Positions 52,416 through 54,296 of a stretch of 64,000 nt of DNA are shown piece after piece; positions within the stretch are counted from its first letter, which is position 1, and each line of letters begins with the position of its first letter. Origin of the DNA: Halorubrum sp. CSM-61. GTDB lineage: Archaea; Halobacteriota; Halobacteria; Halobacteriales; Haloferacaceae. The translations under genes and the position numbers were made by a program. The notes below the pieces were generated by a model, which was not told the DNA's origin, searched no databases, and was given only the letters and a program-made list of their open reading frames with translations. The DNA is taken from NCBI RefSeq assembly GCF_003781945.1, contig NZ_RJJW01000006.1:62001-126000 (forward strand), given 5' to 3'.

Positions 52416-52500
52416 GGGACATTCTCTAACAAGGTCACACAAAAGGCGGCAGAATCCACGGACCGACCGGCGTGATCGAGGCCAAATCAGGGTTTGTTAA

Positions 52501-52519
52501 CGAGTTCTTTCAGAACTCG
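52501..52519. repeat. perfect hairpin at the left edge of the TnpB element
   Basis: CGAGTTCT-TTC-AGAACTCG, an 8-bp stem with a three-base loop. It may be the left-end hairpin of the IS200/IS605-type element or a terminator. Confidence 0.45.
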
Positions 52520-52530
52520 CTACTTACCTG

Positions 52531-52609
52531 AACTGTGCGGCGCTAAGGCCCCTTCCTCAACGAACGAGCGAAGCGAGCGAGTAGGGAGGGGATACAGCGC
52601 CGCACAGTT
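52531..52609 (+). repeat. 14-bp inverted repeat enclosing an omega-RNA-like hairpin
   Basis: AACTGTGCGGCGCT (52531-52544) is perfectly complementary to AGCGCCGCACAGTT (52596-52609). Inside, CCCCTTCCT (52549-52557) pairs with AGGGAGGGG (52583-52591) and is preceded by GAGT, the same design as the right end of the TnpB element (CCCCACCCT with GAGT-AGGGTGGGG at 53997-54040). It may be the relic right end of a second TnpB-type element, or a left-end structure of this one. Confidence 0.55.
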
Positions 52610-52686
52610 CTCATATACGTCCGACACTCGGCCCACAGGCCCACGCAACCGCAACTCTTATTTGTGTATTTTGTGTATTATGTGGT

Positions 52687-52809
52687 GTGGCAACGCGCAA
52701 GAATATCTCTATCCGTGACGACCAAGCCGAGTGGGTGGAGGACAACCACCTCAACCTTTCGTCGTTCGTTCAAGAGAAACTTGACGAACTCATCGAAGAA
52801 CGCTCGTAG
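52687..52809 (+). CDS. small ribbon-helix-helix-like protein upstream of tnpB
   Basis: A 40-residue frame, GTG start, reading MATRKNISIRDDQAEWVEDN and ending SSFVQEKLDELIEERS. The KNISIRDDQAEWVE strand-helix and the second helix SSFVQEKLDEL look like a short ribbon-helix-helix DNA-binding protein. Its stop codon touches the ATG of tnpB (TAG-ATG), so the two are translated together. I recall the same arrangement before other haloarchaeal tnpB genes. It might autoregulate tnpB or the guide RNA. Length cut-offs usually hide it. Confidence 0.7.
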   Translation: MATRKNISIRDDQAEWVEDNHLNLSSFVQEKLDELIEERS

Positions 52810-54033
52810 ATGAACTACAACTACAGGTATCGGCTCCGACCGGCCGACGCGCTCGAAGAGCAGTTAGCGTGGACTGTCGATACCTGTAGACAGGTTTACA
52901 ACCACTTTCTCCACCGACTCAACCGAACCGACGACACCTCGGCATACTCCGAACAGAAACTCCTACCGTATCTCAAGAAGTGGTGGAACGACCTGAAAAA
53001 CGTTCACTCGAAAGTCCTTCAGAAAGTCGTGCAACGGCTGTACGACAACCTTTCGACGCTTCACGGACGCAAAGAGAACGGCTACCGTGTCGGCACGCTC
53101 AAGTGGAAAGCACCGAGCGAGTACCGCAGTTTCACCTACAGTCAATCCGGCTTCAAGCTCAAGAACACGAGCGGTCGGACGAAATTGTGGCTCTCGAAAC
53201 TCGGAGAAATCCCGCTCACATTCCACCGCGACCTGCCCGACAACGCCGAGATAAAGACCGTCACCATCAAACAGGAACCCACGGGCAAGTGGTACGCCAT
53301 TCTCGGCGTCGAAACCCCCGACGACCCGCCCGCGAACCCCGAGAATCCCGAGCGGTGCGTCGGCATCGACGTGGGGATTCTCAAGTACGCCCACGACACA
53401 GACGGAACCGCCGTCGAATCGCTTGACCTGTCCAACGAACGCGACCGGTTGGAACGCGCACAGCGTAACCTCTCTCGGAAACAGCACGGTTCCGCGAATT
53501 GGGAGGCACAGCGCCGTGTCATGGCCGAGCGTCACGCGGAGTTGAAAAACAAGCGGCGAGACTTCCTCCACAAACTCTCGAACTACTACGCCCGAGAGTA
53601 CGAGCTTGTGGCAGTCGAAGACCTCGACGCGAAGGGGTTGGTCGAGCTACCGGGCAACTCGCGGAACCGGGCAGGTGCGGCGTGGGGGACGTTCCTGCGG
53701 ATGCTCGAATACAAGTGCGAACGCGAAGGGACGCACTATGTCGCGGTTGACCCGAAGGACACATCGAAGGAGTGCGCGTCCTGCGGCGTTTCGACAGAGA
53801 AGCCGCTGTGGGTGCGCGAACATTCCTGTCCGGCGTGTGGGTTCGAGGCGGATAGAGACGCTAACGCGGCGTGGAACATTCTTTCTCGCGGTATCAAGAA
53901 GCGGTTAGGAGCGGAACGCTCCGAATCAACGCCTGTGGAGACTGCGCTCCCTGTGGATACATCCGTATCTGCAAAGCACGTCGTGGAAACAGGAAGCCCC
54001 ACCCTCAAGGAACCAGCGTCAGCTGGTGAGTAG
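52810..54033 (+). CDS. tnpB: TnpB, RNA-guided nuclease of the IS200/IS605 group
   Basis: A 407-residue TnpB, the ancestor type of Cas12. RuvC active-site residues are all present: Asp187 in CVGIDVGILKYA, Glu270 in LVAVEDLDAKGL and Asp350 in ADRDANAAWNIL. The zinc finger has Cys322/Cys325 (ECASCG) and Cys340/Cys343 (SCPACG). The bridge-helix region KNKRRDFLHKLSNYYAREYE is intact and the N-terminal wedge domain begins MNYNYRYRLRPADALEEQLA. No frameshift is seen, so it should be active. The gene is coupled to the 40-residue RHH-like gene. The guide RNA should come from the 3' end of the gene. Confidence 0.92.
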   Translation: MNYNYRYRLRPADALEEQLAWTVDTCRQVYNHFLHRLNRTDDTSAYSEQKLLPYLKKWWNDLKNVHSKVLQKVVQRLYDNLSTLHGRKENGYRVGTLKWKAPSEYRSFTYSQSGFKLKNTSGRTKLWLSKLGEIPLTFHRDLPDNAEIKTVTIKQEPTGKWYAILGVETPDDPPANPENPERCVGIDVGILKYAHDTDGTAVESLDLSNERDRLERAQRNLSRKQHGSANWEAQRRVMAERHAELKNKRRDFLHKLSNYYAREYELVAVEDLDAKGLVELPGNSRNRAGAAWGTFLRMLEYKCEREGTHYVAVDPKDTSKECASCGVSTEKPLWVREHSCPACGFEADRDANAAWNILSRGIKKRLGAERSESTPVETALPVDTSVSAKHVVETGSPTLKEPASAGE

Positions 54034-54048
54034 GGTGGGGTAGTTCAC
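53900..54048 (+). ncRNA. predicted omega RNA (reRNA) of tnpB
   Basis: By analogy with other TnpB systems the guide scaffold overlaps the 3' end of tnpB. Visible structure: outer stem CCCCACCCT (53997-54005) with AGGGTGGGG (54032-54040), inner hairpin ACCAGC-GTCA-GCTGGT (54012-54027), then TAGTTCAC at the element end. The guide would be the flanking DNA beginning GAAGGGCCTCGATCC, which is the 3' end of hicA. The 5' limit is not determined. Confidence 0.5.
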
Positions 54049-54296
54049 AGAAGGGCCTCGATCCACCCGCACCACGCGTCAAAGTCGTCGGCACCGCACT
54101 GCTCGGCGATCGACCGGTACGTGTCTTGAGAGATCTGGTCGCTGTCAGTCATCGGAACGCTCACGATACGGACCTCGTCAGTGTCCGAGCTCTCGTACCG
54201 GAGCTTCACGTGGCTTCCCTCGCGACCGGCCGGGCGATATCCCATCGATCGCAGTGCCTTCACGATCTCTCGACCGTCAAAACTCGCATAGACCAT
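54045..54296 (-). CDS. hicA: HicA-type toxin (mRNA interferase)
   Basis: An 83-residue protein with the double-stranded-RNA-binding-like HicA fold: FDGREIVKALRSMGYRPAGR, then the catalytic-His motif EGSHVKLRYE and a central strand RIVSVPMTDSDQISQDTY. It is somewhat longer than many HicA toxins, with an added C-terminal helix GADDFDAWCGWIEALL. In HicAB systems this protein cleaves mRNA when free. It lies 7 bases downstream of the antitoxin gene. The TnpB element begins exactly at its stop codon. Confidence 0.78.
   Translation of the reverse strand: MVYASFDGREIVKALRSMGYRPAGREGSHVKLRYESSDTDEVRIVSVPMTDSDQISQDTYRSIAEQCGADDFDAWCGWIEALL

Follow-up and report, generated by a model that had tools for sequence, protein, structure and literature searches.

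What is a second hairpin doing 5' of a tnpB gene whose own 3' end already overlaps one? In the window, the whole 64,000-nucleotide stretch of Halorubrum sp. CSM-61 DNA analysed here, the sequence-only reading had noticed what it called a solo, omega-RNA-like hairpin, framed by a perfect inverted repeat, and had offered two explanations: either both ends of TnpB elements bear a structure of this kind, or a second guide RNA without its own nuclease lies upstream. The hairpin is not solitary: it belongs to a TnpB element of the IS200/IS605 type (Table 1), of which it is, with high confidence, the left-end (LE) subterminal palindrome, IP_L. By analogy with IS608 and ISDra2, it is most likely the site where the transposase grips single-stranded DNA.

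The palindrome has two nested stems. The outer inverted repeat, GAACTGTGCGGCGCT/AGCGCCGCACAGTTC, is indeed perfect, but it spans 15 bp rather than the 14 bp (52531-52609) first reported, being one base wider on each side; the inner stem, CCCCTTCCT/AGGGAGGGG, has 9 bp, including one central T-G pair. The LE region is predicted to fold well both as RNA (-51.4 kcal/mol, z -5.2) and as DNA (-29.1, z -6.8), and in each case none of 200 shuffled sequences folded as well. The likeness of the inner stem to the right end (RE) of the TnpB element, also part of the initial reading, is real: LE AGCGAGCGAGTAGGGAGGGG and RE AGCTGGTGAGTAGGGTGGGG are 80% alike. An Rfam search of the LE region returned just two weak miRNA matches, far under the cut-offs.

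Table 1. Parts of the TnpB element and its left-end palindrome (positions in the window).
Feature	Position	Strand	Basis or remark
Whole IS200/IS605-group (IS1341-type, tnpB-only) element, 1521 bp	52528-54048	+	Plasmid alignments, drop of identity in the flanks, locus without the element
TTAC, target/left cleavage site (C_L), host DNA kept at left junction	52524-52527	+	
Outer left arm GAACTGTGCGGCGCT	52530-52544	+	Innermost 6 bp family-wide, remainder perfect in this copy only
TAAG, candidate guide sequence G_L, foot of inner hairpin	52544-52547	+	Position as in IS608 G_L
Inner left arm of LE palindrome CCCCTTCCT	52549-52557	+	Compensatory changes with 52583-52591
Inner right arm of LE palindrome AGGGAGGGG	52583-52591	+	
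Outer right arm AGCGCCGCACAGTTC	52596-52610	+	Same letters in twin L009
Small upstream gene, 40 aa, antitoxin/ribbon-helix-helix-like	52687-52809	+	Weak Pfam CcdA antitoxin match, E 0.022, below cut-off
tnpB, RNA-guided endonuclease family protein, 407 aa	52810-54033	+	PF07282 E 1.7e-24; PF01385 E 9.7e-21
RE hairpin CCCCACCCT...AGGGTGGGG, overlapping tnpB 3' end; presumed omega-RNA scaffold end	53997-54040	+	
TAGTTCAC, right cleavage site (C_R TTCAC)	54041-54048	+	Guide would begin at 54049

The extent of the element can be read from its junctions. Megablast alignments to plasmids run from base 1 to base 1521 of the predicted element, and another copy in this genome, on contig C9 and 98% identical (the twin L009, whose contig ends inside the element), shares its sequence from TTAC on and none before. 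Among 62 independent copies, pairwise identity is ~0.25 just outside TTAC on the left and right after TTCAC on the right; the left junction motif reads TTTAC, CTTAC, ATTAC or GTTAC in 45 of them and TTAAC in another 10, and TTCAC is found at 53 RE ends. A relative from the genus (L188, genome G044) has both flanks joined, with neither element nor hairpin between them, the exact junction having diverged there. A TnpB/IS605 OrfB gene, whose product matches the NCBIfam guided_TnpB profile (E 8.9e-86), a subterminal palindrome at each end, an insertion point 3' to a short fixed motif and the lack of terminal inverted repeats make this an IS1341-type element, for which exact boundaries (52528-54048), both end hairpins and the guide start (54049) are now given. 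By analogy with ISDra2, TTAC is likely also the TAM of TnpB. The small-gene reading frame is present upstream of tnpB in relatives as well. The gene between the LE and tnpB is interchangeable: antitoxin-like and 40 aa long here, DUF2080-like in the related locus L013 (E 0.0016, just below the cut-off) and tnpA elsewhere.

The hairpin recurs with the element. In 80 haloarchaeal loci encoding TnpB relatives (71-92% identity), it lies ~250-420 bp before tnpB in 74 (72 parsed automatically and two, L076 and L107, by eye); of the six others, L058 and L068 are damaged, L086 is degenerate, L088 and L098 lie too near a contig end, and L113 has no such hairpin. A clear RE hairpin, defined by 8 or more matching letters out of 10 in the arms, is present in 68 of the 80. 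Aligning the left and right ends of many haloarchaeal TnpB elements, the check proposed at the outset, shows both hairpins again and again, so that such a structure does stand at both ends, and the LE hairpin, far from being absent from other copies, is found in them. The hairpin likewise stands in front of tnpA wherever a TnpA of 90% identity or more is encoded (16 of 16 loci), the tnpA of this genome among them. That gene is the only Y1 transposase gene in the genome and sits within a tnpA-tnpB element, the left end of which has the same hairpin, CCCCCACCCT...AGGGTGGGG. A search by the hairpin pattern alone matched 33 of 146 genomes of the order, as against none with the reversed control. 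When 30 of the matched loci were read, tnpA or tnpB lay on the 3' side in 24, three were miniatures with an RE hairpin close by (L155, L163, L175), one was the C9 twin at its contig end, and two were lone hairpins (L172, L182).

Pairing in the LE hairpin is kept through compensatory changes, in the inner and the outer stem alike. In 45 distinct sets of arms, pairing holds in 644 of 675 cells, and two-sided changes number 16, against a shuffle mean of 4.5; none of 1000 shuffles was as high on either pairing or the two-sided count, in a test that ignores the relatedness of the sequences. Three pair types, T-A, A-T and G-C, recur at the central position of the inner stem, and in L120 the outer stem reads GGCGGGT/ACCCGCC in place of GGCGCT/AGCGCC.

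How might such a palindrome serve transposition? In IS608 of Helicobacter pylori, which inserts 3' of TTAC, the transposase recognises the hairpins of both ends in single-stranded form, and the four bases that precede the hairpin foot on its 5' side pair with the site to be cut, which at the LE is TTAC (PMC5934647). The layout is comparable here: the left end consists of TTAC, 16 nt (usually 13-14), TAAG and the hairpin, and the right end of GAAG, the hairpin and TAGTTCAC. The TAA of TAAG is near-invariant among copies and complementary to the TTA of TTAC; TAAG is inferred, on the IS608 model, to pair with the TTAC cleavage site, a match that is only partly Watson-Crick. In a second RE type, foot and site change jointly, CAAG occurring with TTGAC (also in L011). 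If the analogy with IS608 and ISDra2 holds, a dimer of the Y1 (HUH) transposase TnpA would bind both hairpins on single-stranded DNA, the bases 5' of their feet (TAAG at the LE, GAAG at the RE) would pair with TTAC and TTCAC to place the cuts, and the element would leave and re-insert beside TTAC as a single-stranded circle. The two hairpins would be alike because one transposase reads both, with the RE hairpin alone also forming part of the omega RNA. Lacking a tnpA gene, this copy would need a transposase supplied in trans; the element that holds the genome's only Y1 transposase gene has the same hairpin at its left end. Such reliance on TnpA from elsewhere is not certain in haloarchaea, because in one Haloquadratum strain IS605 elements moved though all tnpA copies were pseudogenes (PMC3119063).

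The likeness to the IS608 IP_L lies in the TTAC target, the short guide bases 5' of the foot and the similarity of LE and RE. Two points count against the transposase-site reading: with an apical loop of ~25 nt and an outer stem, the hairpin is larger than the 20-25 nt hairpins of IS608, and its outer stem, ~6 bp long in the majority of copies, lies on either side of the hairpin that includes the putative guide bases. The hairpin is also C-rich/G-rich, the RE site is TTCAC rather than TCAA, and the copy lacks tnpA. A precedent is found among haloarchaea, where near-terminal palindromes at both ends of IS605-type elements were described in 2011 in Haloquadratum and Natronomonas (Dyall-Smith et al. 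2011, PMC3119063), together with a 4-6 bp targeting sequence, core-deleted derivatives (PATEs) and inserted small mobile repeats (PMC3119063). The present element shares with them the similar palindromes near both ends, the 4-6 bp targeting sequence, the probable absence of target duplication, the longer end-to-palindrome distance at the 5' side, the core-deleted miniatures and the small repeats in or near the palindrome. It differs in coming from another genome and in its unusually long perfect outer stem; ISNph and ISHwa are likened to it by description. The LE hairpin is a further member of these described palindromes, with little that is new in principle.

The other explanation offered at the outset, that the LE hairpin is transcribed as a second omega-like guide RNA sending TnpB to another site, draws on the resemblance of its inner stem and of GAGTAGGG(A/T)GGGG to the RE, a likeness for which a shared transposase already accounts. 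What follows the two hairpins sets them apart. After the RE hairpin, 8 conserved nt give way to a flank at ~25% identity, different host DNA at each insertion, and it is this variable host DNA that would make the omega-RNA guide. After the LE hairpin, by contrast, pairwise identity is 94-100% for 8 nt and then ~27-75%, so that the 3' sequence is conserved element interior instead of a variable flank and the hairpin lacks the guide position that would make it specifically omega-RNA-like. Neither of two candidate LE guides, one in each register, matches a TTAC-flanked site in the 3.7-Mb genome when as many as 3 mismatches are allowed. The ISDra2 reRNA, or omega RNA, derives from the right end (PMC8612924), and the sotRNAs/omega RNAs of H. 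salinarum occupy the same position relative to tnpB (PMC12558985). Like them, the RE hairpin sits at a scaffold end adjoining the variable flank; the LE hairpin, with no variable flank after it, falls into another class. A second guide RNA without its nuclease is accordingly unsupported by the sequence, since what follows the LE hairpin is conserved DNA of the element with no TTAC-flanked genome match; such an RNA is extremely unlikely, and the structure does not warrant annotation as one. A weaker form, in which the LE hairpin would serve TnpA and, once transcribed, also bind TnpB without carrying a guide, acting as a decoy or tuning nuclease activity with the help of this copy's very stable 15-bp stem, has a very slim chance of being right.

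Two further readings deserve mention. The hairpin could be left over from the right end of some other TnpB element, or be a separate miniature element, that lies upstream by chance; miniature LE+RE elements (L155, L163, L175) and two lone hairpins (L172, L182) do exist in other genomes. Such an accident is nevertheless very improbable: spacing, orientation and context are equal across dozens of independent insertions, the LE type is distinguished from the RE type by GCGCTAA...ATACAGCGC, plasmid alignments take in the hairpin as part of one 1521-bp unit, the empty locus lacks it along with the rest of the element, and no copies of the tnpB element were seen to start downstream of the hairpin with a TTAC junction of their own. 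The position of the hairpin, ~80 bp upstream of the antitoxin-like gene at 52687, would also suit a transcriptional terminator or operator for that gene and tnpB. This is hard to reconcile with a hairpin that is kept in gene-less miniatures and before tnpA, tnpB or other small genes, and that is followed by no T-run; as the sole function it is highly doubtful, whereas a double role as transposition end and terminator or operator may exist.

The perfect outer stem of this copy is a separate matter. Of 117 hairpins, 108 have an outer stem of 4-7 bp, against 15 bp in this copy and 12 bp in the next longest (the lone hairpin L182), the family-wide portion being only ~6 bp; the 108 short stems speak against a long outer stem as a functional feature of the family. 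The twin has GAACTGAG--GCGCT where this copy has GAACTGTGCGGCGCT, with identical right arms, and the left arm here is the exact complement of the right arm that the two share. As exact complementarity to the other arm is the expected signature, comparison of the two copies suggests that the perfect stem most likely arose in a single template-switch event that corrected the imperfect palindrome (quasipalindrome) usual in the family. Such correction at quasipalindromes is a known mechanism (PMC7202029, PMC3820800), and a perfect stem beside a 98% identical copy without it would be a small natural example of the change from quasipalindrome to palindrome in a transposon end. A second much extended outer stem, a near-perfect 19-bp outer palindrome, is seen in L182, which has neither transposase nor RE.

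The insertion site has features of its own. The right end of the element falls in the stop codon of a hicA-like gene (54045-54296, PF07927), and the stop is preserved: TAA (from TTAC) if uninterrupted, TGA (from TTCAC) now. An inverted repeat of 11 bp around a 3-nt loop (52498-52522; TAACGAGTTCT/AGAACTCGCTA, 91%) lies immediately to the left of where the element inserted and is possibly the end of the hicA transcript; a repeat akin to it is kept in the relatives L188 and L191.

A compact module of ~55-60 nt with two hairpins (CGTCCCCAGAAATCnnnGATTTCTGG-TGTGCGAACGAGACGCnnnGCGTCTCGTCAACG) is found at the LE regions of ~18 of the 80 TnpB loci, where its letters vary and its pairing stays. It may adjoin the LE hairpin, lie reversed within the apical loop, stand in tandem, or occur inside or near some tnpB genes. 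In the genome studied here it is present on contig C23 (L013, ~1178-1231), and it was also read at L203-L232. Its exact pattern occurs in 24 of 146 genomes of the order, with TnpA or TnpB relatives near 20 of 30 loci read. The module is similar to the SMR-A small mobile repeats (PMC3119063) and about half as long.
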